Shown here: one piece after another, positions 1,851 through 25,545 of the stretch
Numbering within the stretch: the first letter of the stretch is position 1
How the letters are laid out: every line of letters begins with the position of its first letter
Assembly (NCBI GenBank): GCA_029006195.1
Contig: JAQXGH010000040.1
Coordinates: 1 to 33,552 of the forward strand
Direction of reading: 5' to 3'
Length of the DNA: 33,552 bases
Source: Bacillota bacterium
Lineage (GTDB): Bacteria > Bacillota > Clostridia > Peptostreptococcales > Anaerovoracaceae
Made by a program: the position numbers and the translations under genes
Notes under the pieces: model-generated
The model's database searches: none
What the model saw: only the letters and a program-made list of their open reading frames with translations
Told to the model about the DNA's origin: nothing

Positions 1851-1865
1851 TAAATATCTCCTTAA

Positions 1866-3863: not shown

Positions 3864-5137
3864 TATTCTTTCTCCATTAATCGCAGGACCATCTTGCAGA
3901 TGAGTTCTACTCCTGTAGCTAAGACGCTTTCGTCAAAATCAAAGTTGGAATTGTGATTAGGAGCGGCGCATTCGCATGGGAGCTGCATGTATAATGCGCT
4001 TCCCACCTTCTCAGCGAAATATGCAAAGTCTTCACTCCCGTTTCCAGTAGCTTCAAGTATCTCTACTTCTACGCCAAGATCCTTAGCCATTTCCACAAGT
4101 TCCTCGCTATTATTCATAACAGGAGCTGCACCCTTAACTTCTATATCAACGCTGCAGCCATGCATTGCAGCGGCACTTTCTGCCACTCTTACAGCGTATT
4201 CTTCTACATATTTATTAGCTTCAGTTGACCCGCCTCTTGTTTCTGCTTCCATATGGACCTGATCACACACAACATTTCGTCCTGTTCCAGCCTTAAGAAT
4301 GCCAACATTGATATGCGTAGGCTCAAGGCCGTATCTAGGGATAGCATGCATGTTCATTATAGCAGTGCTCGCAGCCAGCAGTGCATTGCTTCCGTTCTGA
4401 GGGTCGATACCTGCATGTGCTGCCTTACCGCGAAAATCAAAATCAAGCTTAGTAGTAGCCAAACTGCCTCTGCCATGAGGCGACGTAAGTCTAAGTTTAG
4501 CAGAACTTCCGTTATGAGGGAATATGTGCAGTGCCAAAACGTGGTCCACATCATCCAGGTGTCCTGCAGCTACAATTGATTTAGCACCTCTAACACCTTC
4601 CTCTGCCGGCTGGAAGATAAACTTGATTTTTCCCCTAAGCTCATCTCTATGCTTATATAAGAGTTTGGCAGCAGCTATTCCCATAGCAGTATGACCGTCA
4701 TGTCCGCAGGCATGCATAACTCCGTCAGTTACAGATTTAGGCACAACATCTTGTGTTTCAAAGACTCCAAGCGCATCCATGTCAAACCTGAGTGCAATCA
4801 CCGGTCCCGGACCTAAGTCAAGCGTAAATATGGCGCCTGTAAAGCCGTCTTTAACAAGCTGAAGTATGTCAGGATCTGCACCATTTTTCATGGCCCACTC
4901 CGCATGTCTATCCAGCTCTTCCTTTGATGGAAGCCCCATTCTTGAATCCGCAGCGCAAACATCCTTTCCTAAGATAGCATCTATACCTAGGTCCTTAAGT
5001 TCATTTACTACACAAGATGTTGTGCGCATCTCCATCCAGCCTGGTTCAGCGAATTTATGAAGATCACGTCTCGTCGCTATGATTTCAGGAAGCATTTCCT
5101 GTATTTCTTTGTCTAACCAAAAATATTTTTCTGTCAT
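3863..5137 (-). CDS. M20-family amidohydrolase, AbgA-like (p-aminobenzoyl-glutamate hydrolase type)
   Basis: A 424-residue zinc-dependent peptidase/amidohydrolase of the M20 family, presumably cytoplasmic. The metal-binding HACGHDGHT (142-150), the FQPAEEG glutamate pair (179-180) and a late HNSNFDFDE segment are present. The N-terminal pattern [12 protein letters not shown], then SRMGLP and GFTG, follows the AbgA subunit of p-aminobenzoyl-glutamate hydrolase more closely than generic hippurate or acetyl-diaminopimelate deacylases; an AbgB partner is not visible here. The substrate is therefore inference: folate breakdown products or another N-acyl amino acid. It is the first gene of the unit leading into uvrB, overlapping it by one base. 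No good Shine-Dalgarno is seen before the ATG at 5135-5137, but no better in-frame start exists. Confidence 0.85.
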
Positions 5138-5231
5138 TTTTATCGTTAAAAATTAATCATTTCCCCCAAGTTCTTCTGTTTTCAAGGCCTGTAGGTGTTG
5201 CATACAATTTGTGCCAAAAATTACCTACTAA

Positions 5232-5240
5232 AGTATACCA
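5232..5240 (-). promoter_or_regulatory. Possible extended -10 promoter for the M20-uvrB-uvrA unit
   Basis: Read on the minus strand this is TGGTATACT, an extended -10 (TG-n-TATACT). No convincing -35 lies 17 bases upstream. It would give a leader of roughly 90 bases before the ATG at 5137. It lies back to back with the nrdD promoter. Weak evidence; the motif could be chance in AT-rich DNA. Confidence 0.35.
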
Positions 5241-5249
5241 TATTTAGTA

Positions 5250-5331
5250 TTGAAAGAGGAATCCAAAGATTGTATAATCACTATGGTTTACAAGATATAG
5301 TATTAGAATTTATGGTTCACGCTATATATTG
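5250..5331 (+). promoter_or_regulatory. nrdDG promoter with two NrdR-box-like sites
   Basis: A near-consensus sigma-70 promoter, TTGAAA at 5250-5255 and TATAAT at 5273-5278, has a 17-base spacer. Just downstream lie two matches to the NrdR-box core CWATATATWG: CAAGATATAG at 5291-5300 (one mismatch) and CTATATATTG at 5322-5331 (perfect). They are 31 bases apart, the three-helical-turn spacing typical of paired NrdR boxes. NrdR is the (d)ATP-sensing repressor of ribonucleotide reductase genes, and these boxes precede nrdD, so control by NrdR is a strong inference. The position downstream of the predicted start suggests a block to transcription. No nrdR gene is in the window. The 5138-5438 gap holds nothing else I can name. 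Confidence 0.75.
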
Positions 5332-5438
5332 AAACAAAGGAAAAGAACATTTATGTAGCAATGATTTCAGCAGTTGTAACCACCGGGGTTGCGGGATGTA
5401 CTGGCTGAATTTGGAAATGGAAGGAAGTGTTAGACGGA

Positions 5439-7664
5439 ATGAAAGTAATTAAGAGAAATGGTTCTGAAGTTTTATTTGACATCACTAAGATTATCGCCGC
5501 TGTAACTAAGGCTAACGAAAGTGTTCCGGATGATGCGAAAATGACTGCACTGCAGATCAAGCGTATCGCAGAGAGCGTAGACTTTTCATGTAATAAGATG
5601 AACCATGCTCCTTCCGTTGAAGAAATTCAGGACTTTGTTGAATATCAGATCATGGCTCATGGTGCTTACGAAGTTGCCAAGAGCTACATTACATATAGAT
5701 ACACTAGATCCCTCGTTCGTAAGTCAAATACTACAGACGAGAAGATCTTAAGCCTTATCGAATGCAGCAATGAAGAGGCTAAGCAGGAAAATGCCAATAA
5801 GAACCCTGTAGTTAACTCAACTCAGCGTGACTACATGGCCGGCGAAGTATCAAGAGACCTTACTGAACGTGTACTTCTGCCACTGGATATCGTAGAAGCT
5901 CATAAGAATGGTATCATCCACTTCCATGACAGCGACTACTATGCTCAGCACATGCATAACTGCGACCTGGTTAACCTTGATGACATGCTCCAGAACGGAA
6001 CTGTTATCACAGGCACTCTCATCGAGAGACCGCACAGCTTCTCAACTGCATGTAACATCGCAACACAGATCATTGCACAGGTTGCTTCAAACCAGTACGG
6101 CGGACAGTCTATCAGCCTTACTCACCTGGCTCCTTTCGTTGATGTCAGCAGACAGAAGATCAGGAAGAATGTAATCGAAGAAATGAACCTGGCTGACCTT
6201 GATCTTGATGAAGATAAAATCAACGCTATCGTAGAGAAGCGTGTTAGAGAAGAAATCAGCAAGGGTGTTCAGACTATCCAGTATCAGGTAGTTACACTTC
6301 TTACTACAAACGGACAGGCTCCTTTCATTACAGTATTTATGTATCTGAACGAAGCTCGTAACCAGCGTGAGAAGGACGACCTGGCTCTGATCATCGAGGA
6401 AATGCTCGAGCAGCGTATCCGCGGAGTTAAGAACGAAACAGGTGCATGGGTAACACCTGCCTTCCCTAAGCTCATCTACGTTCTCGAAGAAGATAACGTT
6501 AAGGAAGGTACTAAGTACTGGAATCTCACTAAACTGGCAGCTAAGTGCACAGCTAAGAGAATGGTTCCTGACTACATCTCAGAGAAGAAGATGATCGAAC
6601 TCAAGGGCGGCGACGTTTACGTACCAATGGGCTGCAGATCATTCCTTACTCCTGACAGATTCACAGATGCAGGCGTTGGCAACATCGCTAATGCAGGAAA
6701 CTACGAACCAGGCAAGCACAAGTACTACGGCAGATTCAACCAGGGTGTTGTTACTATCTCACTTCCTGACGTTGCATTATCCTCAGGCGGCAATATTGAG
6801 AGATTCTGGTCTATTTTCGAAGAACGTCTGGAACTCTGTCACAGAGCACTGAGATGTCGTCACGAAAGACTTCTCGGCACTCCATCAGATGTTGCCCCTA
6901 TCCTCTGGCAGTACGGCGCACTGGCTCGTCTTAAGAAGGGCGAACCTATCGACAAGCTCCTCTATGGCGGATACTCAACTCTGTCACTGGGCTACGCAGG
7001 TCTTTATGAATGCGTTAAGTACATGACTGGTAAGAGCCACACAGATCCTTCAGCTACTCCATTCGCTCTGCAGGTAATGCAGAAGATGAACGACAAGTGC
7101 GCTGAATGGAAGGCTAACGAAAACATCGACTACAGTATTTACGGCACTCCAATCGAGTCCACTACTTATAAATTTGCCAAGTGCCTCCACAGAAGATTCG
7201 GAGTCATCGAAGGCATCACAGACAAGAGTTATATCACAAACAGCTATCACGTTCACGTAACTGAAGAAATCAATGCATTCGATAAGCTCGCTTTCGAATC
7301 ACAGTTCCAGGCACTTTCACCTGGCGGCGCTATCAGCTACGTAGAAGTTCCTGACATGCAGCACAACATCGAAGCAGTTCTTTCGATCATGCAGTTCATC
7401 TATGACAACATCATCTATGCTGAACTGAACACTAAGTCAGACTACTGCCAGGAATGCGGATATGATGGCGAAATCGAAATCGTTGAAGAACACGGCAAGC
7501 TTATCTGGAAGTGCCCTAACTGCGGCAACACTAACCAGGATACAATGAACGTAGCACGCCGTACTTGCGGATACATCGGAACAGAGTTCTGGAACCAGGG
7601 ACGTACAGCTGAAATCAAGGAACGTGTTGTACACGTATCACAGAGTTCCATGGACTGCTGCTAG
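5439..7664 (+). CDS. nrdD: Anaerobic ribonucleoside-triphosphate reductase, NrdD (class III)
   Basis: Makes deoxyribonucleotides from ribonucleoside triphosphates without oxygen, using a glycyl radical installed by NrdG. 741 residues from the ATG chosen. The N-terminus (MKVIKRNGSEVLFD) begins an ATP-cone regulatory domain of about 90 residues. The catalytic barrel follows. The C-terminus carries a zinc site (CQECG then CPNCG) and the glycyl-radical motif RRTCGYIG, the radical glycine lying about 30 residues from the end. A GTG at 5427 in the same frame is an alternative start (745 residues), but the AAGGAAG at 5421-5427 is placed to serve the ATG at 5439. nrdG follows after 16 bases. Codon choice is strongly biased, consistent with high expression. 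Confidence 0.97.
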   Translation: MKVIKRNGSEVLFDITKIIAAVTKANESVPDDAKMTALQIKRIAESVDFSCNKMNHAPSVEEIQDFVEYQIMAHGAYEVAKSYITYRYTRSLVRKSNTTDEKILSLIECSNEEAKQENANKNPVVNSTQRDYMAGEVSRDLTERVLLPLDIVEAHKNGIIHFHDSDYYAQHMHNCDLVNLDDMLQNGTVITGTLIERPHSFSTACNIATQIIAQVASNQYGGQSISLTHLAPFVDVSRQKIRKNVIEEMNLADLDLDEDKINAIVEKRVREEISKGVQTIQYQVVTLLTTNGQAPFITVFMYLNEARNQREKDDLALIIEEMLEQRIRGVKNETGAWVTPAFPKLIYVLEEDNVKEGTKYWNLTKLAAKCTAKRMVPDYISEKKMIELKGGDVYVPMGCRSFLTPDRFTDAGVGNIANAGNYEPGKHKYYGRFNQGVVTISLPDVALSSGGNIERFWSIFEERLELCHRALRCRHERLLGTPSDVAPILWQYGALARLKKGEPIDKLLYGGYSTLSLGYAGLYECVKYMTGKSHTDPSATPFALQVMQKMNDKCAEWKANENIDYSIYGTPIESTTYKFAKCLHRRFGVIEGITDKSYITNSYHVHVTEEINAFDKLAFESQFQALSPGGAISYVEVPDMQHNIEAVLSIMQFIYDNIIYAELNTKSDYCQECGYDGEIEIVEEHGKLIWKCPNCGNTNQDTMNVARRTCGYIGTEFWNQGRTAEIKERVVHVSQSSMDCC

Positions 7665-9197: not shown

Positions 9198-10392
9198 TAA
9201 ACCATCCCTTCATAGTATCTACTACAATTTTGATTTCATCATCTGTTATAACATATGGGAGCATAGTATACATATACTTAAGAAAAGGCTTCACAAAAAC
9301 GCCTCGTTCATATGCGTATTCCTTGAAACCGTCAAGATCCTTAGAATCGAACACTTCAATGCAAAGTGTAGTTCCCATTACTCTCACATCTTTTACTAAA
9401 GGATGAGCAAAACCTTCAGTTTCGCTCCTAAGGAGCGCTTCGATTTCTTTGATCCTATCCATATAGCCGCCTTCATCAAAAAGCTCGATGGAAGCCAGTG
9501 CAGCGCTGGCAGCCAGTGGATTACCCATAAATGTAGGTCCATGCATGAGGGCCTTATCAGGATCATCATCATAAAAAGCATCCCATACCTTCTGGCCTGC
9601 CACAGTTGCAGCCATAGGCAAATGTCCGCCAGTTAAAACCTTGCCCAACACAATTATATCAGGCAGCACTTCATCAGCTACGAATCTATAGCCTGTTCTG
9701 CCGAAACCTGTAGCTACTTCGTCAAATATAAGTATAACGTCATATTCATCGCAGAGCTCTTTCGCGCGCTTAAGGAAGTCAAGGCTATACATAAGCATTC
9801 CTCCAGCACCCTGAAGAAGCGGTTCAACAATAAAGCAGAACAAGTCATTGCCGCGTTCCTCAAACACCTTCTCCAGAGCATCTATTTCAGTAGGAACATG
9901 GAGCACATATGGGCTTTCTCCATATGCCTTTAATATAGCATGGTAATCTTCATCATCACCAGCTTCCATTGTCTTAAATGAATCGCCGTGATATGAATTG
10001 GTTAAGCTAAGAAGAACATTGCGACCTTCATATCCCTTATTCATGTGATACTGAAGCGCCATCTTAATGGCTACCTCAACGCCTATAGAACCCGAATCGG
10101 TAAAGAAAGTGTAGTTAAGATCACCAGGAAGCCAGTTAGCCAGCTTGTCTGCCAGCTTCTGTGCAGGCTCGTGGACAAGTCCGCCGGCAAGCATGATATG
10201 AGAAAACTTCTGCGCCTGATCTACTATAGCCTGTGTGATCTTAGGGTTTTTGTAACCAAAAGCGGTACACCACCATGAAGATATTGTGTCAATCAAGGCC
10301 TTCTCTTCTGTATAAATATATACCCCTTCCGCATCTACAACCTTAAGAGTTTCTTTCATTGTTTTCATCTGTGTATATGGATACCAAATCAT
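9181..10392 (-). CDS. bioA: Adenosylmethionine-8-amino-7-oxononanoate aminotransferase, BioA
   Basis: PLP-dependent enzyme that converts 8-amino-7-oxononanoate (KAPA) to 7,8-diaminopelargonate, normally with S-adenosylmethionine as amino donor. 403 residues, slightly short of the ~430 of the E. coli enzyme. Visible are the family start WYPYTQMK, the tryptophan pair SSWW (39-41), SYHGD (133-137), FDEVATGFGRTG (223-234) and the Schiff-base lysine K251 in LGKVLTGG. A good AAAGGAG site precedes the ATG. It is 11 bases after bioD and overlaps bioB. Confidence 0.96.
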   Translation of the reverse strand: MIWYPYTQMKTMKETLKVVDAEGVYIYTEEKALIDTISSWWCTAFGYKNPKITQAIVDQAQKFSHIMLAGGLVHEPAQKLADKLANWLPGDLNYTFFTDSGSIGVEVAIKMALQYHMNKGYEGRNVLLSLTNSYHGDSFKTMEAGDDEDYHAILKAYGESPYVLHVPTEIDALEKVFEERGNDLFCFIVEPLLQGAGGMLMYSLDFLKRAKELCDEYDVILIFDEVATGFGRTGYRFVADEVLPDIIVLGKVLTGGHLPMAATVAGQKVWDAFYDDDPDKALMHGPTFMGNPLAASAALASIELFDEGGYMDRIKEIEALLRSETEGFAHPLVKDVRVMGTTLCIEVFDSKDLDGFKEYAYERGVFVKPFLKYMYTMLPYVITDDEIKIVVDTMKGWFNDKTC

Positions 10393-11739: not shown

Positions 11740-13542
11740 TTATTCAGCCAGCTCACCACGTTCGATTTTTTCGGCCATTTCGCTTAAGTATTCCCAGCGA
11801 TCCATCTTCTCCATGAGAAGTTCGTCCAGTTCGTCTTTCTTAGCAGCCAGCTCTGTCAACTTACCTGAATTTGATGCATTGGCCATGATTTCCTGATCCA
11901 GTTCTTCAAGCTGTCTTTCGATATCAGCGATAGTCTCTTCGATAGTCTCGTACTCACGCTTCTCGTTAAAGCTGAACTTGAGCTTCTGCGGCTTACTGTT
12001 ACGTCCATCAGTCTTCTTAGCATCCTTTGATGGAGCAGCTGCAGCCTTCTTCTCATTTTCGGCATCACGCTCATCCTTCTCATTCATATACTTACTGTAA
12101 CCGCCAGTATAGTGACCTATATGACCATTCTCTTCGAAAGCGAAGGTTCTGATTACCAGTCTATCCAGGAAGTATCTATCATGGGATACGATTATAACAG
12201 CTCCAGGGAAGTCATCAAGATAGTCTTCCAGAACTGTCAGCGTATCGATATCAAGATCATTGGTAGGTTCGTCCAGGATCAGGATATTAGGCGCCTTAAT
12301 AAGGATAGAGAGAAGGTAAAGTCTTCTTCTCTCACCGCCTGAGAGCTTACCGATTTTAACTGAATGCATCATAGATGGGAAGAGGAATTTCTCCAGCATC
12401 TGAGATGCCGACAGATATCCATCCTTTGTCTTGATACTTCGAGCGATTTCTTCTATATATTTGATGATTCTAACATCTGGGTCCATCTCTTCTGATTCCT
12501 GTGAGAAGTACCCGATTTTAACAGTTTCACCTGTTTCGATAACGCCGCTATCCGGCTGTACCTGCCCCATGATCATCTTAAGGAGCGTAGTCTTACCGCA
12601 GCCGTTATTACCTACGATACCTATTCTATCGTTTCTTAAAATGTTATAGCTGAAGTTATTTATATATGTTGTGCCTTCGTAACTCTTAGTAATTCCCTTA
12701 AGTTCGATGATTTTCTTACCAAGTCTTGAGCTAAGAGCATCGATTTCCACCTGTGGGTTGTCAAAATCCTGTTTACTGTCAACCAACTGCTGAAAGCGCT
12801 GGATTCTGCCTTTGGCCTTAGTAGTTCTGGCTGGAGCAGTCCATCTGATCCATCTCAGTTCCTTATGGTAAATTGCCGCACGCTTACGCTCGCTGGCCAT
12901 AGCCATTTCCAGTCTTTCTGCCTTTGCAGTCAGATACATATCGTAGTTACCTTCGTATCTGACGAGCTTTCCCTTCTCTATTTCGCAGATGGTATCTGTA
13001 ACTCTTTCCAGGAAGTATCTGTCATGAGTGATCATGAAGAGTGCTCCCTTGTATTCGATGAGCTTTTCCTCCATCCACTCGATGATATCGTTATCCATAT
13101 GGTTGGTAGGTTCGTCCAGGATAAGCAGGTTGGTATCCCTGCACATAACGGCTGCCAGTGCAACACGTTTTCTCTGTCCACCTGAGAGCGTACCCATCTT
13201 CTGCTCATGCATATCCATATGGAGCTTATTGAGCATTGATTTGCAGATGTATTCCTCTGCTTCTCCGTTTACGTATTCCAGCATCTGCTCCAGAACAGTC
13301 TTCTCAGGATCATATTCTGGATTCTGAGGCAGGTATCCGATTCTCAGATCATTACTTCTGAGGATTTCTCCACCTTCTTCTTCCAAAACTCCTGCTATTA
13401 TCTTAAGGAGCGTTGACTTACCGCTGCCGTTAACTCCGACAAGACCTATCTTATCGCCTTCATCTATACTGAGAGAAACATCTTCCAGAAGCTGTTTCTC
13501 CGAAAAACTCTTTTTTATATGTTTAGCTGTAATTAAAACCAT
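11740..13542 (-). CDS. ABC-F family ATPase, Uup-like
   Basis: Soluble twin-ATPase of the ABC-F class, 600 residues, without membrane segments. The first Walker A is GVNGSGKST (residues 36-44) with LSGGQRKRVALA and LILDEPTNHMD. A linker rich in basic residues follows (WIRWTAPARTTKAKGR). The second Walker A is GNNGCGKTT with LSGGERRRLYLL and LILDEPTNDLD. The last ~100 residues form a charged C-terminal extension with a predicted coiled coil, as in Uup. Family members act on the ribosome or, for Uup, also influence DNA transposon excision; resistance-type ABC-F proteins cannot be excluded but the Uup-like tail argues otherwise. Its ATG shares one base with the stop of the upstream HAD-TcdA gene. 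Confidence 0.9.
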   Translation of the reverse strand: MVLITAKHIKKSFSEKQLLEDVSLSIDEGDKIGLVGVNGSGKSTLLKIIAGVLEEEGGEILRSNDLRIGYLPQNPEYDPEKTVLEQMLEYVNGEAEEYICKSMLNKLHMDMHEQKMGTLSGGQRKRVALAAVMCRDTNLLILDEPTNHMDNDIIEWMEEKLIEYKGALFMITHDRYFLERVTDTICEIEKGKLVRYEGNYDMYLTAKAERLEMAMASERKRAAIYHKELRWIRWTAPARTTKAKGRIQRFQQLVDSKQDFDNPQVEIDALSSRLGKKIIELKGITKSYEGTTYINNFSYNILRNDRIGIVGNNGCGKTTLLKMIMGQVQPDSGVIETGETVKIGYFSQESEEMDPDVRIIKYIEEIARSIKTKDGYLSASQMLEKFLFPSMMHSVKIGKLSGGERRRLYLLSILIKAPNILILDEPTNDLDIDTLTVLEDYLDDFPGAVIIVSHDRYFLDRLVIRTFAFEENGHIGHYTGGYSKYMNEKDERDAENEKKAAAAPSKDAKKTDGRNSKPQKLKFSFNEKREYETIEETIADIERQLEELDQEIMANASNSGKLTELAAKKDELDELLMEKMDRWEYLSEMAEKIERGELAE

Positions 13543-14849
13543 TATTTTATTAAATCCTTAATTATTTCCCCTGCAATAATGAGCCCTGAAACGGAAGGTG
13601 CGAAGGCAGTGCTTCCAGGGAGGCTTCTTCTAGTGGTATCCTCTGAAGTGTTTTCCACTGCTTCTACTGGAGGTTCATCAGAATAAACCACCTTGAGGTC
13701 CTTAACGCCCCTCTTCTTCATCTCTCTTCTCATTACCCTAGCCAGAGGACAAACTTCCGTCTTATATATATCTGCCACCTTAAACCTGCTGGCATCCAGC
13801 TTATTGCCCGCTCCCATAGCGCTGATAACGGGAACGTTTGCAGCCTTCGCACGCATGATGAGTTCGATTTTAGCAGCCACTGTATCCACCGCGTCCACAA
13901 CGTAATCATACTGCTCAAACGGGAACTGGTCCGCATTCTCTGGCAGGAAGAAACAGTTGTGAATAGTGACATCTACATCAGGATTGATATCCAGCATTCT
14001 GGCTTTCATAACTTCTGTTTTATACTGACCGATCGTGGATCTTAACGCGATTATCTGTCTATTCAGATTGGTAAGGCTGACTCTATCACTATCAATAAGT
14101 TCAAAGGCGCCTACTCCGCTGCGAACAAGTGCTTCGCATACGTAACCGCCCACTCCTCCTATTCCAAAGACTGCAACCCTGGACTTTTTGAGCTTATCCA
14201 TAGCATCTGCACCCACCAGCATCTGAGTTCTGGAGAACTGATTATCAGATGAAATCCACTCTTCCAGCTGGGCAGCAGCTTCTTCGTGATCTGTAACAAC
14301 TATGCCGTTAAGTCCGCATTCTCTGGCAGCTCTAATGTTATCTTCTCTATCATCAAGGAAGATGCACTTTGACGGCTCTAGTTCATATTCATCTATTATA
14401 GCTTCATAGATAAGGTGATCAGGCTTAATGAGATGGACATCACATGAGAAGATGCCGCCATCCATTAAAGGAATAAAGTCCAGAACTTCAGGATTCTGCT
14501 CTCTCAGATACTTAGACCAGTTCGAAAGAAAGAGCAGTCTATATCCTCTGGCCTTTAAGTCTTCGAGCCAATCCTTAGTGAAGTCATACTGATAAAGAAC
14601 GTTTTTCACCTGGCCCCAGAAATGTCTGATGTCTTCCTCTATCTCAGGATCAGTATCGATAAAAGCCTGCAGGACCTCATCATTAGTCCATACTCCCCTA
14701 TCAAGTTCGTCCCAGATGCCGTTTTCGAAAACAACATCCTTCACTCTAGCTATGCGTTCCTCATCGCCTTCAAAGATGTCCCTAAAAAACTCAGGAAAGT
14801 CATATCCAACCAGAACCTTACCTATATCGAAAATTATTGTGTTAATCAT
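13542..14849 (-). CDS. tcdA: HAD phosphatase fused to TcdA-like tRNA threonylcarbamoyladenosine dehydratase
   Basis: One 435-residue frame holds two enzymes. Residues 1-200 are a HAD subfamily IA phosphatase resembling YihX: nucleophile D8 in FDIGKVL, FLSNWS (107-112), K142 in IKPDH, and acidic pair D166-D167 in IFLDDREDN. From about residue 203 (NQFSRTQMLVG) a full ThiF/E1-like TcdA domain follows: GIGGVGG nucleotide-binding loop (229-235), TNLNRQ, VDAVDTV, GAGNK and ADIYKTEVCPLARVMR. TcdA (CsdL) cyclises t6A37 of tRNA to ct6A. A stand-alone TcdA normally begins close to the QFSRT motif. No start codon sits at the junction, so the fusion looks genuine. Downstream coupling to an ABC-F ATPase also points to translation. 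The HAD substrate is unknown. Confidence 0.9.
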   Translation of the reverse strand: MINTIIFDIGKVLVGYDFPEFFRDIFEGDEERIARVKDVVFENGIWDELDRGVWTNDEVLQAFIDTDPEIEEDIRHFWGQVKNVLYQYDFTKDWLEDLKARGYRLLFLSNWSKYLREQNPEVLDFIPLMDGGIFSCDVHLIKPDHLIYEAIIDEYELEPSKCIFLDDREDNIRAARECGLNGIVVTDHEEAAAQLEEWISSDNQFSRTQMLVGADAMDKLKKSRVAVFGIGGVGGYVCEALVRSGVGAFELIDSDRVSLTNLNRQIIALRSTIGQYKTEVMKARMLDINPDVDVTIHNCFFLPENADQFPFEQYDYVVDAVDTVAAKIELIMRAKAANVPVISAMGAGNKLDASRFKVADIYKTEVCPLARVMRREMKKRGVKDLKVVYSDEPPVEAVENTSEDTTRRSLPGSTAFAPSVSGLIIAGEIIKDLIK

Positions 14850-15855: not shown

Positions 15856-16317
15856 TTACTTCATAGTAACTGATACCAAATCATCGCCGTGATATTCCAG
15901 ACGCATGTTGATGTCAGGTTCTCCATCCATGATTTTCTGGAGGAATATGCGGTCACCCTCCCAGAGGCTAAGACCCATTACTTCGTCTTTATTTATCCAA
16001 TGCATCACGCCTTCATCGCAGATACTGAAGTCGATGTCAACATCGCCCTCAAGATGTGCAGAGAAAAGATGCATGTTTTCGCTTTCCCACTTATCTGAAA
16101 CGAATTCGATCAGGCCATGATAATGCCATGTTTCAAGTGTCAGGCCTGTCTCTTCGCGAACCTCTCTCAGCATGCATTCTACTGCTGTTTCGCCCTTTTC
16201 GAATTTACCGCCAACACCTATCCACTTACCGGAACTTGGGTCACAAGCCTTCATGCCTCTAAGCATCATCAGATATCTACCTTTATTTTCTATGTAACAA
16301 AGTGTTGTTTCAAACAT
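15856..16317 (-). CDS. Nudix hydrolase, MutT/8-oxo-dGTPase-like
   Basis: A 153-residue cytoplasmic Nudix pyrophosphohydrolase. The Nudix box is perfect: G37, E43, R51-E52, E55-E56, G58 in the GX5EX7REUXEEXGU arrangement. The surrounding sequence (SGKWIGVGGKFEKGE, and later WHYHGLIEFVS) resembles MutT/MTH1-type 8-oxo-dGTP diphosphatases, but Nudix substrates are hard to predict. It follows the HD-GYP gene by 52 bases with no terminator between them, so it may be the last gene of that operon. AGGAAGGGG upstream is the likely ribosome-binding site. Confidence 0.9.
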   Translation of the reverse strand: MFETTLCYIENKGRYLMMLRGMKACDPSSGKWIGVGGKFEKGETAVECMLREVREETGLTLETWHYHGLIEFVSDKWESENMHLFSAHLEGDVDIDFSICDEGVMHWINKDEVMGLSLWEGDRIFLQKIMDGEPDINMRLEYHGDDLVSVTMK

Positions 16318-16369
16318 GAGGCCGCCCCTTCCTAATCTTTTTTATTTAATACTTTGAGTCTCCATTTGA

Positions 16370-18889
16370 TTAAATCTTTCTAGTTACTATTTCTTTTTCT
16401 TCGATCAGCTTAACAAATATTTCTGCAAGCTTAGGATCGAACTGAGTACCTGCACCGTCCTTTATCTGCTGTGCAGCATACTCAATCGAAAGGCCTCTTC
16501 TATAAGGTCTGTCAGTAGTCATAGCATCGAATGAATCGGCAATCGCCAGACATCTAGCTGATACCGGAATATCTTCACCCGCAGTACCTCTAGGATATCC
16601 TCTGCCGTCCCATCTTTCGTGATGACCGATGGCAGCTGGAATAAGGTAATCCATTGAAGGAAGATGTCTGATCATATCGATGGATCCATTTACGTGGCCA
16701 CGCATAATTTCGAATTCCTCGTCAGTGAGCTTGCCTTCCTTCCCCAGGATGTATTCAGGAATGGAAATCTTACCAATGTCATGCAAAAGCCCCGCAGCGT
16801 AAACCATTCTGATCTGGTCATCATTCATGCCGTTGGCTGCAGCCAGAATAGCAGCATACTTCGCTACGTTCTTACTGTGCTGAGCAGTATAGTGGTCCTT
16901 GGCGTCGATGGCAGCGATGAGTGCGAATATAGTCTGTGATGATTCACCCAGAACTGTATTCTTATTCATCTCGATAAGTTTCTCTACCTTCTTACGCAGG
17001 TTGTATGTGATAGAATCGTTGCTCTTGAAAATAACGATATTATCCTTACCTCTGTTCTTAGCTCTGTAAACAGCCAGGTCAGTATTATCGATAAGTTCAG
17101 CGCAAGTTGAAGCTGCATGCGGTGCGACGCAGATGCCGCATGATGCAGTCAGTTTCTTATATGAAGATCTGATACCGAAGCTATTGATCTTAGCTATTTC
17201 TTCCTGAATGTGCAGAGCCATATTCTTAGCCATTCTAGCATCATATTCAGGGAGTATTACAGCGAATACCTTGCCGCTGTATCTGAATGCATAACCATTA
17301 TCGCCAGCTACGTGCTCGATAAGTTTAGCAATTCTCTTAAGAACTTCGTCGCCTTCATTAGCGCCATAGAGCTGGTTGTATAACTTGAAGTCATCAATGT
17401 CTATGAACATAAGTGCCAGATTGTCTCTGTCAGGTCTATCAAACTCCTGCTTGATAACCTTAGTGAAGTATCTATAGTTATAGATCTCAGTCATGGCATC
17501 TGTTCTAGCTTCTCTAGCCACCTGTTCATAGAGGCCTGCATTCTTCATGGCGATAGCGGAAATTGAACCAACTGTTGCCAGGAAGGCCATATCACCTGCT
17601 GTGAACTGGCTGTTCTTTTCTTTCTTTGACATGAGGACAAGACCAACAACTTCATTCTTATCCATAAGTGCCAGGATACAGGCGATATCAAGCTGCTTGA
17701 ACAGGAGCTTTTCGCTATCCCACATTGATAAGTATGAAGGGCTGCTCTCGAAGTCTCTCATAGTGAAACATGTTTCACCCATCTTAGCATAGTCAACGCA
17801 TGGGTTATCATCTCTAAGTGAGAATGATGAAGTAGCCAGTGGACTTGAAACATATCTGAATTTATACTCATTACCTTCATGCAGGCAAATATAAACATTC
17901 TGAGTTGCTATTTCTGACTTGATAGTATCAGACATTGTGGACATTACATTCTGAGTATCCAGAGTCTGTGATACTTCCTGTGAGAAGGATTTGATCAGTC
18001 TGTTCTGCTGTTCTTCTCTAGTGAACATAGCATCGATAAGCTTTCTCAGGAGAACGTAACACAAGGCCGTCATTAATACAGTGCCCAGTACTACAACCGT
18101 AATAGCTATGTCAGTTGGCATATCAACTTTATTTGTCAGGAAACTTACGAACGGATGAACGAAGTTCATTGTTACGAAGAGACATAACAGCACTGAAACG
18201 CAGACTACAGCACCTCTTGAAACCAGGAGAGTGAGTCTGAACATTCTCTTTCTGTAGAGTGACCATACAAGGAATCCCACAGTGATGATACCCGAGAGAG
18301 TATCATATGGGAATGTGTTGTTAGGTATGATCTGAAGCAGATTACCAAGAGCTATGATAATACATCCTGCAGTCATGGAGTTCATTCCAGGTGAACTAGT
18401 TCCAGTCTCCTTCTTCTTATTTCTTATTACCTTAGCAATTGATACTACGATACAAGCGAAGAAAGCATAAGGGATTGCGATTTTCCAGTCCATATTATAG
18501 ACAAATACGGTGCCTGCTTCTGTTTTAATAGGAACAGGAGGCTTAAGTATTACGCCCATAGCTGTAAGCACCAGAATAATAAGGGTGCCTATGGACCATA
18601 CTATCTTAAGGAAACTACCCTTAGTCTTGGTAAATGAGCATACGAATATATACGTAAGTACAGCTATGCAGAACAGCGATAGTATCGATACATAGTACCA
18701 GAAACTAAGCCCTGGATAGATCTGCAGACGCATCAGAATAGAGCCGATAGTCCAAAGCATAAATGACGTGAGAAGCGCAATAAATGCCTTGATTTCTTCG
18801 GTCTTCTTGGCAGCGATAAACGAAATAAAGATTATCGCATATCCGCACATTGCTATTAAGTTGATATAAAGAAAGGGAACATTACTCAT
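16370..18889 (-). CDS. Membrane signalling protein: N-terminal membrane sensor, GAF, degenerate GGDEF, HD-GYP
   Basis: An 839-residue protein. Residues 1-285 contain about eight to nine hydrophobic spans resembling the 7TM sensor region of some histidine kinases. A short helical linker leads to a GAF domain (~300-455), a GGDEF domain (~465-625) and an HD-GYP domain (~650-835). The GGDEF active site is degenerate: the GGDEF pentapeptide reads SGKVF (538-542) and the expected ND after FKLY is NQ, so diguanylate cyclase activity is unlikely. HD-GYP is intact: H703-D704 in LLHDIGK, HHERWDGRGYP (756-766). HD-GYP proteins hydrolyse cyclic di-GMP, so a membrane-controlled phosphodiesterase is likely. 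Its start overlaps the GH3-like gene by 4 bases (ATGA). Confidence 0.92.
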   Translation of the reverse strand: MSNVPFLYINLIAMCGYAIIFISFIAAKKTEEIKAFIALLTSFMLWTIGSILMRLQIYPGLSFWYYVSILSLFCIAVLTYIFVCSFTKTKGSFLKIVWSIGTLIILVLTAMGVILKPPVPIKTEAGTVFVYNMDWKIAIPYAFFACIVVSIAKVIRNKKKETGTSSPGMNSMTAGCIIIALGNLLQIIPNNTFPYDTLSGIITVGFLVWSLYRKRMFRLTLLVSRGAVVCVSVLLCLFVTMNFVHPFVSFLTNKVDMPTDIAITVVVLGTVLMTALCYVLLRKLIDAMFTREEQQNRLIKSFSQEVSQTLDTQNVMSTMSDTIKSEIATQNVYICLHEGNEYKFRYVSSPLATSSFSLRDDNPCVDYAKMGETCFTMRDFESSPSYLSMWDSEKLLFKQLDIACILALMDKNEVVGLVLMSKKEKNSQFTAGDMAFLATVGSISAIAMKNAGLYEQVAREARTDAMTEIYNYRYFTKVIKQEFDRPDRDNLALMFIDIDDFKLYNQLYGANEGDEVLKRIAKLIEHVAGDNGYAFRYSGKVFAVILPEYDARMAKNMALHIQEEIAKINSFGIRSSYKKLTASCGICVAPHAASTCAELIDNTDLAVYRAKNRGKDNIVIFKSNDSITYNLRKKVEKLIEMNKNTVLGESSQTIFALIAAIDAKDHYTAQHSKNVAKYAAILAAANGMNDDQIRMVYAAGLLHDIGKISIPEYILGKEGKLTDEEFEIMRGHVNGSIDMIRHLPSMDYLIPAAIGHHERWDGRGYPRGTAGEDIPVSARCLAIADSFDAMTTDRPYRRGLSIEYAAQQIKDGAGTQFDPKLAEIFVKLIEEKEIVTRKI

Positions 18890-20478
18890 ATCTGATATCT
18901 CAACATTGCGGAAACATCCATCATGCTGGCATTGATCTTAGGCAGCGTGCGGCCTGTTTCTCTGCAAAAGGCTTTCATTGTGCCGTGCTTAAGTACGGTT
19001 ATCTTTAACGGTTCCATATTGAGGAGCTTCTTCAGGTCATCATAATCACTGTCAAATGCCTTGAAGTAAGTTGCCAGGTGTTCAGTAAGAACTCTCTTAC
19101 TAACAACGTCTGACTCCTGTGCGTCCTCTGAGATTTCTATATACATGTGCATATAAGGATTATCATTTCTGTCGAATTCTTTCCTAGCGATCCAATCATC
19201 AATGCCAAGTTTAGATAATCTAACGGTTTCTGCAATAGCAGTTTCGGTGATACGTGTGAAGCTGGCAATATCAATTACGCTAGGGATTCTGTCATAGAAT
19301 GAGAATCTAGGCAGTTCACCTGTTGATGCAGCGCTCACACAGTGATATACATCACCAATTCTATATCTCATGAATGCTCCTCCATGAAGAACACTCAGTA
19401 CTATTTCATAATTCTCACCCTCTGTAACCTCGTTCATGAGTACAGTATTTGGCTTATATGAACGGTCCTTAAGATTCTTAAGGTATTCCTGTTCAGGAAT
19501 GAATTCATAGAAGCAAGCATCAGGGAATAAAGTCATTCCCCTCTTCATGAGTGATTCTGAACCAATGCAAGTAGCTTCAGTACCTGCAGCTATTTCAATA
19601 GGATCGATGCCCCAGGCATTTGTCAGTCTTTCTCTATAGTGACTGGCATCAGTACCCGTACAAACGAAACCCTTAAGCTTAAATACATCCTTAGGATAGA
19701 TAGGTCTGCCTTCCTTCTTAGAAGTGTATTTAGCCTTAATGAATCTGGCAATGAATATAGGTGAAATCGGAGTCTTGCTCTTACCTGATCCGCTGCTTGC
19801 AGAGCCTCCAGTCATATCGCTGAAACTCTCAGTTATATAGTTAGCGACTGCAGCATTTGCGAAAAAGTAGTCAGCTCCACCTGACATTGCCATCTTGAAG
19901 CCTTGCTTGATTCTCTTAGAAAAGCTGCCGATGGAAGCATCGTTACTAGGCAGCCATTCGAAATCAATGGCTTCATCAAGAAGCGACGGAATAAGTCCTG
20001 ACATGTACGGAAGCGGTGCTCCGCCATAAAGAACCCTGTCGCCCTTCTTAACGTTTATCTGTCCCTTCTCCTTAGCCGAAATGAGGATAGTAAGTGCGGA
20101 CAGATTGTGTCTATATGTATCAAGCATGCTTCTGGTATAAGGCGCAACTTTAACAGGCTTAAGACCGCCCTCCCATGTTGTCTGGATCCATATTACAGGT
20201 TCGCCAGGCAGCATGTCCTTACGCTTAGCCAGAAGGATATCCGCATAATCATCATATGTTGTGAGTGGGAAATTGTCTCTGAAGTCGTCAATAGACTTGA
20301 ATTTTTTACCTTTTAACAGACTCTTGCCGAGGCCTGATTCAGACCAAACATTAATCTGTTCAGTCATGAGTCTGTTCTGGATGTTCATATACTCGTCAAT
20401 ATCCAAATCCATGAAACCACAGTATTCCTGCCATAATTGTTTGGAAGAATATTCTTTTAACTGTTGCTGAAATCTCAT
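18886..20478 (-). CDS. GH3-like acyl-acid adenylating ligase (GH3 auxin-responsive family)
   Basis: A 530-residue member of the GH3 fold of acyl-adenylating enzymes; plant GH3 proteins join jasmonate or auxin to amino acids. Matching stretches are FPLTTYDDYADIL (70-82), the phosphate-loop region IQTTWEGGLKP (98-108), the IEIAAGTEATCIGSE segment (295-309) equivalent to the acyl/ATP motif, RYRIGDV (371-377) and FSFYDRIPSVIDIASF. The glycine/serine loop is less canonical than the plant TSSGT form. Substrates are unknown; assigning amidation of a carboxylic acid is family inference. It lies 2 bases after the ICMT-like gene, with AGGGA inside that gene's end as ribosome-binding site, and overlaps the HD-GYP gene. 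Confidence 0.82.
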   Translation of the reverse strand: MRFQQQLKEYSSKQLWQEYCGFMDLDIDEYMNIQNRLMTEQINVWSESGLGKSLLKGKKFKSIDDFRDNFPLTTYDDYADILLAKRKDMLPGEPVIWIQTTWEGGLKPVKVAPYTRSMLDTYRHNLSALTILISAKEKGQINVKKGDRVLYGGAPLPYMSGLIPSLLDEAIDFEWLPSNDASIGSFSKRIKQGFKMAMSGGADYFFANAAVANYITESFSDMTGGSASSGSGKSKTPISPIFIARFIKAKYTSKKEGRPIYPKDVFKLKGFVCTGTDASHYRERLTNAWGIDPIEIAAGTEATCIGSESLMKRGMTLFPDACFYEFIPEQEYLKNLKDRSYKPNTVLMNEVTEGENYEIVLSVLHGGAFMRYRIGDVYHCVSAASTGELPRFSFYDRIPSVIDIASFTRITETAIAETVRLSKLGIDDWIARKEFDRNDNPYMHMYIEISEDAQESDVVSKRVLTEHLATYFKAFDSDYDDLKKLLNMEPLKITVLKHGTMKAFCRETGRTLPKINASMMDVSAMLRYQI

Positions 20479-20480
20479 GG

Positions 20481-21041
20481 TTATTCCCTAAAGTCCTTTA
20501 AGCATTTAGCTATACTACTAGTGCTTGGGATAAGAAATGGAGTGTTTCTCTTATACTCGTCGTAACCGGAAAGAAGTGCCGGGAACACAAGTATATCTTC
20601 AAAGACTATAAGCAGAAAATTCAGTCCGCATAGAATCAAAGCGCCCATGGCTGTCATATGCGTACTCAAGAAAAGACATGCATAAAGCAAAATGAAAAAC
20701 AGTACCCCAGGGTGTCTGCAAAGCGCATACATACGCGTAGTTGTAGCTACCCTGTCATTACCTGACGTGTTATTAGAGTAGGCCTCGTCCATATCGAACG
20801 AAAAGAATAGCGAATAAAATTCTGCCACTAGCATCAGCAGACAAACCAACCAAATCACTACCCTTGCTGCCAAACCAAAACACAGCTCACCGTCACCTCT
20901 AAAGCACTGCCATACAGTGGATACCAGCAGTAATGCGAATCCAACAGGGAAACAAATTTTCAGCCAAGCCTTATTAAGCTTCCAGTCATTAAAATCATTA
21001 ATGAAGAACAGTGCAAAAGCAACGATTCCGGTAATGTACAA
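20481..21041 (-). CDS. Integral-membrane methyltransferase, isoprenylcysteine carboxyl methyltransferase-like
   Basis: A small membrane protein (~186 residues) with about five hydrophobic spans. The C-terminal half has the hallmark of the ICMT/PEMT group that uses S-adenosylmethionine: YALCRHPGVLFF, then two membrane spans, then FEDILVFPALLSGYDEYKRN and TPFLIP (family pattern RHP...E...GxEYxxY...PxxxP). Bacterial relatives methylate varied lipids or carboxylates; the substrate is unknown. No ATG start fits. TTG at 21041 has GGGG 8 bases upstream; TTG at 21047 is in frame but only 2 bases after it. First gene of the GH3/HD-GYP operon. Confidence 0.75.
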   Translation of the reverse strand: MYITGIVAFALFFINDFNDWKLNKAWLKICFPVGFALLLVSTVWQCFRGDGELCFGLAARVVIWLVCLLMLVAEFYSLFFSFDMDEAYSNNTSGNDRVATTTRMYALCRHPGVLFFILLYACLFLSTHMTAMGALILCGLNFLLIVFEDILVFPALLSGYDEYKRNTPFLIPSTSSIAKCLKDFRE

Positions 21042-21083
21042 CTTCAAATCCCCTCTAAAAATTTATACTAATGAGCACATCAT

Positions 21084-21129: not shown

Positions 21130-21160
21130 AAAAAGAGGGCCTAAACCCTCTTTTTTGTTG
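21130..21160. terminator. Terminator of the agmatine deiminase gene
   Basis: AAAAAGAGGG (21130-21139), a 6-base loop and CCCTCTTTTT (21146-21155) form a 10-bp perfect stem flanked by A and T runs on both sides. It lies just past the aguA stop on the minus strand and works in that direction. Confidence 0.88.
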
Positions 21161-22527: not shown

Positions 22528-23043
22528 CTATTTAGCTGGTGGCAGCTCCTTAGCCCAGTGGTAAAGATTTACCATAGCATCTACTCTTTCGAGATAGAAC
22601 TTAGAGCCAGTAGTGTGTTCGAATCTGTGTCTCAGCACCTTCTTATCCTTATACCAACCTTCTGGCGGCTCTACATCAATAGCAGCAGATAATTCAATAA
22701 AGGCATCCGGCTCAACTTCATTGATCAGAATAACCTTTCTTCTATTCTTCTTAGCAGGCTGAATATCAATGCAGCCATGATAGCACATTGTATCTGCAAA
22801 GAACTGCTTCAGTTCAGCATCAGTCATCTCATTATCCTGTGAAACAAGGCATTCACCTTCAACCTTCAGTCCGATATGACCAATTGAACTCTTAGTAACG
22901 CTATATCCCTTCTTCATAAGCGCACAAACTGCAGGAGCTATCAGTTCTTCACATTCAAAGAAATCATACTTCTTCTGGTTACCAACTTCTTCCTTAGGTG
23001 CGTCTACGAAAATTGTGTAATCTACTTTTCTTATATATGCCAT
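22528..23043 (-). CDS. Hypothetical protein, 171 residues
   Basis: I do not recognise this protein. It is soluble in appearance: no signal peptide or membrane span, mixed alpha/beta pattern, acidic in the middle and basic near residues 100-105. Five cysteines occur, two of them in DTMCYHGCIDIQ. The gene looks real: clear AAGGAAG ribosome-binding site, ATG start, its own terminator, and codon use like its neighbours. It is flanked by the tandem repeat array upstream and agmatine deiminase downstream, which suggest nothing specific about function. Confidence 0.8.
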   Translation of the reverse strand: MAYIRKVDYTIFVDAPKEEVGNQKKYDFFECEELIAPAVCALMKKGYSVTKSSIGHIGLKVEGECLVSQDNEMTDAELKQFFADTMCYHGCIDIQPAKKNRRKVILINEVEPDAFIELSAAIDVEPPEGWYKDKKVLRHRFEHTTGSKFYLERVDAMVNLYHWAKELPPAK

Positions 23044-23704: not shown

Positions 23705-24319
23705 CCCCTGCAACTTAGCTCTAAACTCAGGGTTAAGAAAATGATACTTATCATCGTCCTTCGCCTTAAGACCAGTAACCAGAGTCTGAGCCATCTCGCT
23801 AAGCATAGAATCCAGCTGCTCTTCAGTGAAATCCACCGCGCCGATCCTATACATAGAAGCGATGCCATGAGCGTAAAGCATCAGATTGTCAAACATCCAC
23901 GAAGCCTGCTCTTCAAGTATATCAAACGTCCAGGAAATCACCTTAATGACTTCTTCTTTGTTGCCTTCACTTTCCAGCACACTTTCGTATGAAGGACCGC
24001 TTCCCTGCTTCATGAACACAACTTCATAAAGCTCAGGCTCATCTTTGGCGAATTTCAAAAGCTGCAAACCGTAGCTTTTGAATGCTCTTTCACCCTCCAG
24101 GCCGGCTAAAACGTACTCTTTATATATGGACTTTGCCTTCGCGACAACCTCAGCCGTCAGCTCATCCATTGTTTTGAAATGAGTGAAAATCGGACGGGTT
24201 GAAGTTCCCAGCTTGGCAGCAAGTTCGCGAGCCGTTAAGGCATCAAGACCATTTTCTCTTACAACTTCTAAAGCCAGTTCAACTATTTGTTCACTACTGA
24301 ATTTCGTCTTCGGTGGCAT
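23702..24319 (-). CDS. TetR/AcrR-family transcriptional regulator
   Basis: About 205 residues. The N-terminal ~60 residues form a TetR helix-turn-helix: IVELALEVVRENGLDALTAR, ELAAKLGTSTRPIFTHFKTMDEL. The C-terminal ligand domain is of a type I cannot assign to a ligand. The start ATG at 24319 has AAGGGGG 8 bases upstream; the ATG at 24325 is too close to that site. The gene overlaps the end of the polymer-forming membrane protein gene, so the two are one unit. Palindromes near the promoter of that unit are the natural candidates for its operator, implying autoregulation. Confidence 0.92.
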   Translation of the reverse strand: MPPKTKFSSEQIVELALEVVRENGLDALTARELAAKLGTSTRPIFTHFKTMDELTAEVVAKAKSIYKEYVLAGLEGERAFKSYGLQLLKFAKDEPELYEVVFMKQGSGPSYESVLESEGNKEEVIKVISWTFDILEEQASWMFDNLMLYAHGIASMYRIGAVDFTEEQLDSMLSEMAQTLVTGLKAKDDDKYHFLNPEFRAKLQG

Positions 24320-25445
24320 ATACATAACCCCCTTCTTCTAACAGATTTTCTTTATCCTTTTTAATATATTTCGCGTAGAAAGTCATTGTAAAGTATCCGA
24401 TGATAAATAATACTGTTGCCAGCTTTACGATTCCTCCAACGTATGGGATTTCGCGGAGAATCAGGAGAACTACAACTCCGATGATAGTGCTGCCCCAAGC
24501 ATTCATCTTAGGAACCAGCTTGCCAAATACAGCCTGGCCAGCTGCTGCGCCTGCGAATGGTACAGAAACCATAAGCATGATAGTGTAAATCACTCCTAAA
24601 ATCAGTGAAAGCGGAATACCGATCACAGTTATGAGCAGAATAAGTGAGGCTACAGGAATGCAGATCATTGCTATAGCGCCGGTGCCAGCCATCTTTCCAG
24701 GCTTTGTCATCATGAGATCACCTGCATCTTCAACTGGCTTTTTGAAGAAGAGTCTCATAGCCAGCCAAATGAGAATCGATGCCAGAAACCACCAAATCGC
24801 AAAACCGTGACCTGAGCCAGAGGATGCTTCATCCGCACTAACTTCATCTGATTCAGTTACTATATCATAATTCAGCGCTCCGACCTTAGCACCTTCGGCA
24901 ATAATAGGTTCGCTACCTAAATTACCTTTTACAGTGCCAGTAATAATAGCGCCTTCTTGAATCGATAAAGTATCAGAATTTATGATTAAGTCTCCATCGA
25001 TTTTACCGGAAATAATTGCATCAGCTGCATTCACATGCAGGCACTTTGCCTGGCCATCGAATAATACGTCCTTACCAAAGAAGTAACCAGTATCGAGCTT
25101 ACAGTCATTAAATCTAATGGTTTGCGCTGCGATTGAAGCATTTCTACTAATATCCACATCTGTGAAATCCACTGACTGACATGCTATTCTGGCTGCGCCA
25201 TCTACCTTACCATTTGTAACAGTAATATTTTGTCCTGCCATAACCATATCATAACCGATATTGAAATTTGACTTCTCGAAGTCGTTTCCAACCCAGTAAA
25301 GATCCTTGGAAACTTTATCAACCGGCATATCTTCTACAAGGGTAACATTGCCTGATGAGTCTGTAGTAGCCGCCATTGCAACCGAAGTGGTTATTCCAAA
25401 AGCTACAAGCATTACAACACATAAACTTACAATTATTTTTTTCAT
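24294..25445 (-). CDS. Secreted/membrane protein with polymer-forming (bactofilin-like) beta repeats and C-terminal membrane spans
   Basis: 383 residues from the chosen ATG at 25443-25445, preceded by GGAGG 9 bases upstream; the longer open frame to 25544 adds an unlikely N-terminus. A signal peptide (MKKIIVSLCVVMLVAFG... ending AMAA) is followed by ~190 residues of short beta-strand repeats such as ISGKIDGDLIINSD and IITGTVKGNLG, like the polymer-forming bactofilin-type domain. A serine/glycine linker leads to about four to five hydrophobic spans and a short charged tail. The repeats would lie outside the membrane. Envelope function is inferred; the protein is not a known named gene. It overlaps the TetR gene by 26 bases. 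Confidence 0.78.
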   Translation of the reverse strand: MKKIIVSLCVVMLVAFGITTSVAMAATTDSSGNVTLVEDMPVDKVSKDLYWVGNDFEKSNFNIGYDMVMAGQNITVTNGKVDGAARIACQSVDFTDVDISRNASIAAQTIRFNDCKLDTGYFFGKDVLFDGQAKCLHVNAADAIISGKIDGDLIINSDTLSIQEGAIITGTVKGNLGSEPIIAEGAKVGALNYDIVTESDEVSADEASSGSGHGFAIWWFLASILIWLAMRLFFKKPVEDAGDLMMTKPGKMAGTGAIAMICIPVASLILLITVIGIPLSLILGVIYTIMLMVSVPFAGAAAGQAVFGKLVPKMNAWGSTIIGVVVLLILREIPYVGGIVKLATVLFIIGYFTMTFYAKYIKKDKENLLEEGGYVYATEDEIQ

Positions 25446-25473
25446 TACTTTTTCCTCCAGTTTTCCAGCTTTC

Positions 25474-25537
25474 GTTATGCAACATCTGTTGCATAACATC
25501 TGTAACCATATGTTAACACATTCATGGATAATGTCAA
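25474..25537 (-). promoter_or_regulatory. Promoter and palindromic operator of the membrane protein/TetR unit
   Basis: A perfect -35 TTGACA lies at 25532-25537 (minus strand), with a weak -10 (ACATAT or AACATA) around 25508-25514. A perfect 10-bp inverted repeat GTTATGCAAC-ATCT-GTTGCATAAC occupies 25474-25497, between the expected start site and the ribosome-binding site. A second, imperfect 18-bp palindrome TGTAACCATATGTTAACA covers the -10 at 25501-25518. Such sites fit dimeric TetR-type repressors; assignment to the adjacent TetR is inference. Confidence 0.7.
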
Positions 25538-25545
25538 CACACAAA

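Follow-up and report, generated by a model that had tools for sequence, protein, structure and literature searches.

We analysed a 33,552-nt stretch of DNA (the window in what follows) from a Bacillota bacterium (Clostridia; Anaerovoracaceae; GCA_029006195.1, contig JAQXGH010000040.1, positions 1–33,552) and focused on a cassette of three consecutive minus-strand genes. These encode, in the order of transcription, an integral membrane methyltransferase of the ICMT fold (20481..21047; 188 aa when counted from the first TTG), an enzyme resembling acyl acid amido synthetases of the GH3 fold (18886..20478; 530 aa), and a sensor-output protein (16370..18889; 839 aa) with a seven-transmembrane (7TM) region followed by GAF, GGDEF, and HD-GYP domains. 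A preliminary description of this DNA had reported three co-directional open reading frames (ORFs) with a 2-nt gap and a 4-nt overlap, and these coordinates hold: the gap lies at 20479–20480, between the methyltransferase and GH3 genes, and the overlap at 18886–18889, between the GH3 and sensor genes. The start of the methyltransferase gene was assigned mechanically to the TTG at 21047; a second in-frame TTG at 21041, found by eye 8 nt after an AGAGGGG stretch, is the likelier start and would give a protein of 186 aa. A terminator-like hairpin (21130–21155; listed for both strands) between the operon and an agmatine deiminase gene marks the upstream border. The single promoter postulated earlier did not stand up to scrutiny, since the candidate ahead of the methyltransferase gene (21113–21084, a single 10-of-12 match) belongs to a class of promoter-like sites that occur in the window at chance level (18, compared with 17.0 ± 4.3 in shuffled sequences).

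A three-gene cassette conserved in order and inherited together

To assess conservation, we used a pattern scan of one genome per species (84,980 species), which yielded 129 GH3 relatives; the best 80 of these were analysed, so that distant relatives are under-sampled. The class could be resolved for 69 of the 80, all of them Clostridia, and not for the other 11; overall, carriers belong to the Clostridia and, in some cases, to deeper lineages of the phylum. With tblastn, we located the methyltransferase upstream of GH3 in 79 of the 80 loci and the sensor downstream in 79, with the two gaps falling in a locus that begins inside GH3 (L023) and in one that stops 118 bases after it (L038). We then assembled a set of 96 loci—the window, the 80 relatives, 14 further loci, and one solo sensor—which may include near-duplicates and has two loci from one metagenome-assembled genome (MAG; L017, L018). 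Profiles matched GH3 in 95 of these loci, the methyltransferase in 93 (all but L023 and L061, both affected by contig starts, and the solo sensor locus, L183), and the sensor in all 96. Where all three profiles matched (93 loci), order and strand were kept in 92; the lone exception is again L038, where the sensor match is another GGDEF gene. The conserved co-occurrence of the three families in this order, which the preliminary description had suggested looking for, is thus borne out, and the outcome it had named as fatal—families regularly apart, or the overlap a local accident—did not materialize, the sole sensor found without enzymes being that of one genome, G774 (see below). The spacing between GH3 and sensor genes is exactly −4 in 20 of 74 loci, although start codons were called mechanically and gap sizes are therefore rough.

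No generally conserved fourth gene was found by clustering the neighbours in 73 upstream and 69 downstream loci: at the position two genes ahead of GH3, the most frequent cluster occurs in 9/73 loci, and at the position two genes behind it, in 3/69. The upstream cluster consists of extra same-strand GGDEF genes that sit directly before the methyltransferase gene (L038, L048, L052, L058, L065, L077, L085, L087, and L088), so that some lineages carry an additional cyclic di-GMP (c-di-GMP) gene next to the cassette.

The phyletic patterns of the three subfamilies also match closely. Among 398 genomes drawn across the phylum, the GH3 subfamily (E ≤ 1e-30) was present in 11; the methyltransferase profile found these 11 genomes again with strong matches (E ≤ 4.3e-30), its matches in 11 further genomes reaching only E ≥ 2.9e-11. 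The 7TM-GAF profile matched 12 genomes strongly (E ≤ 4.2e-62), namely those 11 and G774, and gave seven weak matches (E ≥ 2.9e-20). The probability of the 11-on-11 match between GH3 and methyltransferase arising by chance is ~1e-21 when counted by genome and ~6e-17 when counted by genus, figures that assume independence, which kinship weakens. Among 392 genomes of the class, 18 match GH3 at 1e-10 and only seven are of the cassette type (E ≤ 2.4e-192); the weak matches, at 13 places of which two lie in cassette genomes, come from ordinary GH3s for which tblastn detected no partner gene within ~1.5 kb. Of the 49 genomes of the window's genus, 13 match GH3, 12 of them with the cassette type. In the small orders and the one class around three other carriers, GH3 matches were found in 2/13, 3/8, and 4/16 genomes, and the partner genes were present wherever flanking DNA sufficed. 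The solo sensor of G774 (L183, 7744–10299, minus strand) is of the cassette type: this genome has no GH3 match at E ≤ 10, the 19 kb read around the gene hold no cassette enzyme, and no credible enzyme remnants were found beside it in L183. Solo receptors occur in other signalling systems.

Trees built by quick, short searches point to a common history of the GH3 and sensor genes. For 46 cassettes (omitting L037 and L140, see below), 27 of 43 splits are common to both trees, compared with a mean of 0.19 and a maximum of 2 in shuffles, with zero conflict among well-supported splits. The window's genus appears in three places: alongside the window (six rows; support 100); in the company of loci from Butyricicoccus and Pygmaiobacter (support 98 and 96); and, with L009 (identical in sequence to L041), within a 25-row set (support 97), Lachnospiraceae and Eubacteriaceae being among the nearest rows. 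Congruent trees together with three cassette lineages in one genus suggest that the cassette moves between lineages as one unit. Searches of a plasmid collection at E ≤ 1e-3 gave no match. The cassette is also present, with its three genes in order, in an entry filed as viral (L096; IMG/VR UViG_2744054950_000006); this may be cargo of a prophage or host DNA filed wrongly. We considered a defence system as well and rejected it, since PADLOC produced nothing beyond weak cross-matching of Cas3-HD with the HD domain.

In an Oscillospiraceae MAG (L037), the methyltransferase and GH3 are fused in one 725-aa ORF. This natural fusion, the conserved gene order, the matching phyletic pattern, and the congruent trees all contradict the notion that the neighbourhood is a local accident devoid of a functional link, which has little to recommend it beyond the patchy distribution and the solo sensor of G774, and to which we assign next to no probability. 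The overlapping GH3 and sensor genes of the window and the congruence of their trees would suit a scheme in which the two enzymes act on a membrane protein, or on the sensor, instead of making a free small molecule. ICMT proper indeed methylates prenylated proteins; yet characterised GH3 enzymes use free acids and amino acids, and we hold such protein modification to be very improbable.

As for flanking genes, the preliminary description had pointed to a Nudix hydrolase gene (15856..16317, minus strand; Pfam 3.6e-15), and it does lie 52 nt downstream of the sensor gene, with no terminator-like hairpin in the window's hairpin listing between the two. We rejected a role for it in the cassette, as tblastn (E ≤ 1e-3) found no counterpart of the protein in the 80 related loci. 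Further along the same strand, a 435-aa protein (13542–14849) combines a HAD hydrolase domain (residues 2–179) with a ThiF/TcdA-like domain (residues 207–431), possibly a tRNA-modification fusion, and two ORFs on the other side of the operon (24294–25544, 416 aa; 22528–23043, 171 aa; both minus strand) match no Pfam family at E ≤ 0.001.

Two predicted enzymes and a candidate sensor with variable output

The window's GH3 protein matches the Pfam model GH3_M (1.9e-14; 54 bits against a cut-off of 23.6), as do all 36 of 36 cassette members tested; the N- and C-terminal GH3 models reach 20.6 and 20.5 bits in the window protein, under the 23.6 cut-off, and match 30/36 and 22/36 members, respectively (E ≤ 0.01). 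Its predicted structure has the GH3 fold over the whole length (structure matches in this study come from VIA-align 2), the same as in the plant enzymes JAR1 (4epl) and GH3.12 (4epm). The parallel to plant hormone chemistry drawn in the preliminary description is sound as far as this common fold goes and no deeper; the identity to these two proteins is 14–16%, and motif I differs. This nucleotide motif (TTWEGGLKPVK; 20149..20181, minus strand) is unusual: across the 95 cassette GH3s, counted by regular expression with the misses checked by eye, it reads T-[TA]-W-E-x-G in 88, TTWKGG in four, and TSGK in three deep members, and so departs from the standard (S/T)SGTxxGxxK by which family members are recognized. 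Motif II (AGTE; 19576..19587) and motif III (RYRIGD; 19351..19368), both on the minus strand, are kept in 95/95 proteins as AGTE/GGTE and RYRxGD, and line up by eye with the reference GH3 motifs given in the accessible part of PMC12493201. In a short-search tree of 57 GH3s, a long branch (support 100) parts 48 cassette members from nine ordinary bacterial GH3s.

The methyltransferase is more elusive at the level of primary sequence. The window protein has no Pfam ICMT match, and among 33 members (E ≤ 0.1) ICMT was matched by eight, PEMT by seven, and DUF1295 by six, with 1.6e-4 as the best value. Its structure is nonetheless predicted to adopt the fold of the ICMT/sterol-reductase superfamily, and an RHP motif (H112) as well as D151 are invariant over 56 aligned rows. 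These may be the histidine and the acidic residue that contact S-adenosylmethionine, a correspondence drawn from a weak alignment (E 0.02); the acid is aspartate here, where RhlM has E162.

The sensor starts with a membrane region of eight hydropathy peaks (18047..18865, minus strand, as are the domains that follow). HisKA_7TM (PF16927) is matched by 28 of 35 sensor members (E ≤ 0.01), with the window member unmatched at E 0.1. The adjoining GAF domain (17540..17944) is below the cut-off in the window member (E 0.0021), and the commonest GAF model matches 16/35 members. What had been described as a membrane GAF/HD-GYP protein does carry intact HD-GYP residues; overlooked was the GGDEF domain between the GAF and HD-GYP domains (17042..17506; residues 462–616; Pfam 5.9e-36). 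Its signature in the window is a degenerate SGKVF (17264–17278) that deviates from GG[DE]EF, and the third position is lysine in 79 of the 89 loci, out of 96, in which it could be assessed (four misses of the regular expression were checked by eye). The ten other signatures are GGEEF (four), GGDEF (three), SGEEF, NGDEF, and NGDKF (one each), and seven deep members pair an intact GGDEF/GGEEF with an I-site-like RxxD five residues ahead, as judged by eye. The HD-GYP domain (16427..16918; HD_5 5e-41) has intact HDIGK and HHERWDGRGYP motifs, and the HD...HHExxDGxGYP residues are intact in 86 of the 96 loci; eight are cut by contig ends, and L037 and L140 differ. From these signatures, the sensor looks like a former two-way c-di-GMP enzyme turned mainly phosphodiesterase. 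Mean column identity rises from 0.47 in the 7TM region and 0.49 in GAF to 0.61 in GGDEF and 0.71 in HD-GYP; that the 7TM region is the most variable part is as expected for a sensor, which fits, while being no proof of ligand choice. In one single-contig genome (L121, 9321–11911), the sensor gene is split over two overlapping frames and may be broken or frame-shifted.

The two deviating loci are instructive. Downstream of the L037 fusion gene, the third gene retains the 7TM-GAF half, and its C-terminal half consists of HisKA, HATPase, and receiver domains, i.e. a hybrid histidine kinase; the third gene of L140 encodes 7TM, GAF, and an intact GGDEF domain without HD-GYP. The L037 fusion together with these two swaps indicates that the enzymes remain linked to the sensor half even as outputs change. 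We favour the earlier proposal that the enzymes make a hydrophobic acyl compound to which the membrane protein responds, and the swaps speak for it.

A candidate acyl signal and its proposed link to c-di-GMP

In the mechanism that we infer, the soluble GH3-like enzyme would activate an acyl acid with ATP and form an amide between this acid and an amino acid or a similar amine, and the membrane-bound ICMT-like enzyme would methylate the free carboxylate of the resulting amphiphile. The product would carry no charge, being the methyl ester of an N-acyl amino acid or a closely related compound, and could exit the cell or partition into the membrane. The 7TM-GAF part would bind it and control its own output domain: usually an HD-GYP phosphodiesterase lowering c-di-GMP, with the GGDEF domain turned regulatory. 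Candidate synthase and candidate receptor genes are encoded together and co-inherited, as looked for in quorum sensing, both roles being assigned by prediction. To this scheme of a self-contained chemical-signalling cassette—acyl-amino acid maker, carboxyl capper, 7TM sensor, and, as a rule, lowering of c-di-GMP—we give an even chance of being correct.

Several known systems share parts of this design. The RpfF-RpfC-RpfG system of the diffusible signal factor (DSF), likened here by description only, resembles the cassette in coupling an acyl signal to an HD-GYP phosphodiesterase; in contrast to it, RpfF is a synthase of the crotonase fold, and sensor kinase and HD-GYP are separate proteins. 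The PhcB-PhcS pair of Ralstonia, also compared by description only, features a fatty-acid methyl ester signal made by a methyltransferase together with a sensor protein, but PhcS is a histidine kinase, and the accessible parts of the sources name no GH3 (PMC8578825, PMC11960443). N-acyl amino acid methyl esters (NAMEs), the very class of product predicted for the cassette, are known from Roseovarius and resemble N-acyl homoserine lactones (AHLs), although, according to the part of the source available, they take no part in AHL-mediated signalling there, and that part names no genes for their biosynthesis (PMC11580390). With respect to the capping step, RhlM is described as an ICMT-family membrane enzyme that methylates the carboxylate of rhamnolipids and is encoded in the gene cluster for that lipid; it differs from the cassette in belonging to rhamnolipid synthesis in Burkholderia-like bacteria, with no sensor gene mentioned in the accessible portion of the report (PMC11069360). 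By analogy with RhlM, a GH3 product that is an amphiphile with a free carboxylate would be suited to methylation by an ICMT-family enzyme.

The nearest characterised bacterial case found for the GH3 is OlsH, which, as described in the available part of PMC12493201, makes N-acyl ornithine from fatty acids and ornithine and belongs to the OlsH-OlsG-OlsI operon of Singulisphaera acidiphila, with OlsG acting as an ornithine lipid N-methyltransferase. As in the cassette, a GH3-like amide maker adjoins a methyltransferase gene; unlike the cassette, no sensor gene is mentioned in that part of the source, and the window's GH3 scores far below the cut-off of the family model for OlsH, the lyso-ornithine lipid synthetase (NCBIfam NF052613; 22.9 bits against 620), the model being matched by 10/36 cassette GH3s at E ≤ 0.01 (best 4.9e-7). 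Since OlsH makes an amino lipid of the membrane next to a methyltransferase gene, the cassette might instead be an envelope-lipid pathway with feedback, in which a methylated amino lipid is structural, and the 7TM protein senses its level or the state of the membrane and links this to c-di-GMP and the surface lifestyle, with no signal passing between cells. The c-di-GMP riboswitch that leads the cassette in one locus (L042; below) would agree with this idea. The cassette is, however, patchy (7/392 genomes in the class, 12/49 in the genus), which core lipid genes are not; its neighbourhood lacks an acyltransferase-like cluster of general conservation; and a sensor that stays with its enzymes as outputs swap is more typical of signalling. 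We therefore regard a purely structural lipid as rather unlikely.

The carriers' habitats bear on a further explanation, namely that the sensor detects an amphiphilic acid from outside—from host, diet, or a rival bacterium—and that conjugation and methylation by the two enzymes render this acid inactive. Plant GH3 enzymes can inactivate hormones through conjugation, several carriers are labelled as gut or faecal, and the distribution is patchy with signs of transfer. Yet the cassette is also found in a groundwater genome (L057) and in one labelled as from a digester (L037), it feeds either c-di-GMP turnover or a hybrid kinase, and neither a transporter nor a regulator accompanies it as a general rule, all of which makes detoxification or quenching an improbable account.

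We also searched for c-di-GMP riboswitches around the cassette (67 relatives and the window were scanned, with the length of upstream DNA varying by locus). In the Parasporobacterium locus L042, a c-di-GMP-I riboswitch (60.6 bits; 9265–9349) ends 69 nt before the methyltransferase ATG (9419), and a hairpin with a run of U is predicted after it. This is the only direct leader among the scanned loci, and riboswitch control as a general feature of the cassette was accordingly rejected; c-di-GMP-I riboswitches or their GGC variant lie elsewhere in five loci (L052, L053, L058, L060, and L085). In L095, an OLE RNA (426 bits; 11786–12427) lies about 0.75 kb downstream of the cassette sensor.

In the window's own genome, c-di-GMP would act through riboswitches: two of the c-di-GMP-I class are present, and no PilZ effector was found in this assembly (85% complete). 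The first (L188, 764–852) ends 64 nt before a gene (917–6199) whose product of at least 1761 aa carries SpaA, Cna_B, and collagen-binding domains, as in large surface adhesins. The second (L187, 762–845) is followed by a masked stretch and by genes that appear panB- and panC-like by eye. Given the riboswitch ahead of the SpaA/Cna_B surface-protein gene, it is plausible that surface adhesion in this organism responds to changes in c-di-GMP.

Possible implications for signalling in Clostridia

Most of the signals by which Gram-positive anaerobes are known to communicate are peptides. No description of GH3, ICMT, and HD-GYP as one system was found among open-licence PMC papers, and the cassette would thus be a kind of synthase-plus-receptor system built from families not previously tied together in the literature found. 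Somewhat more tentatively, at slightly below an even chance, we propose that it represents a class of non-peptide autoinducer in Clostridia: a carboxyl-capped N-acyl amino acid, made by the GH3 and ICMT enzymes and perceived by a 7TM receptor whose swappable outputs feed c-di-GMP or a phosphorelay, with the cassette mobile as a unit and solo receptors eavesdropping on the signal. If the signalling interpretation is true, it would open up small-molecule signalling in Lachnospiraceae, Oscillospiraceae, and their relatives, provide a ligand for an orphan class of 7TM sensors, and suggest for the GH3 and ICMT proteins of bacteria a role that can be tested, with ties to c-di-GMP and surface adhesion. 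The natural swaps of output domains, moreover, make the sensor a candidate modular receptor.

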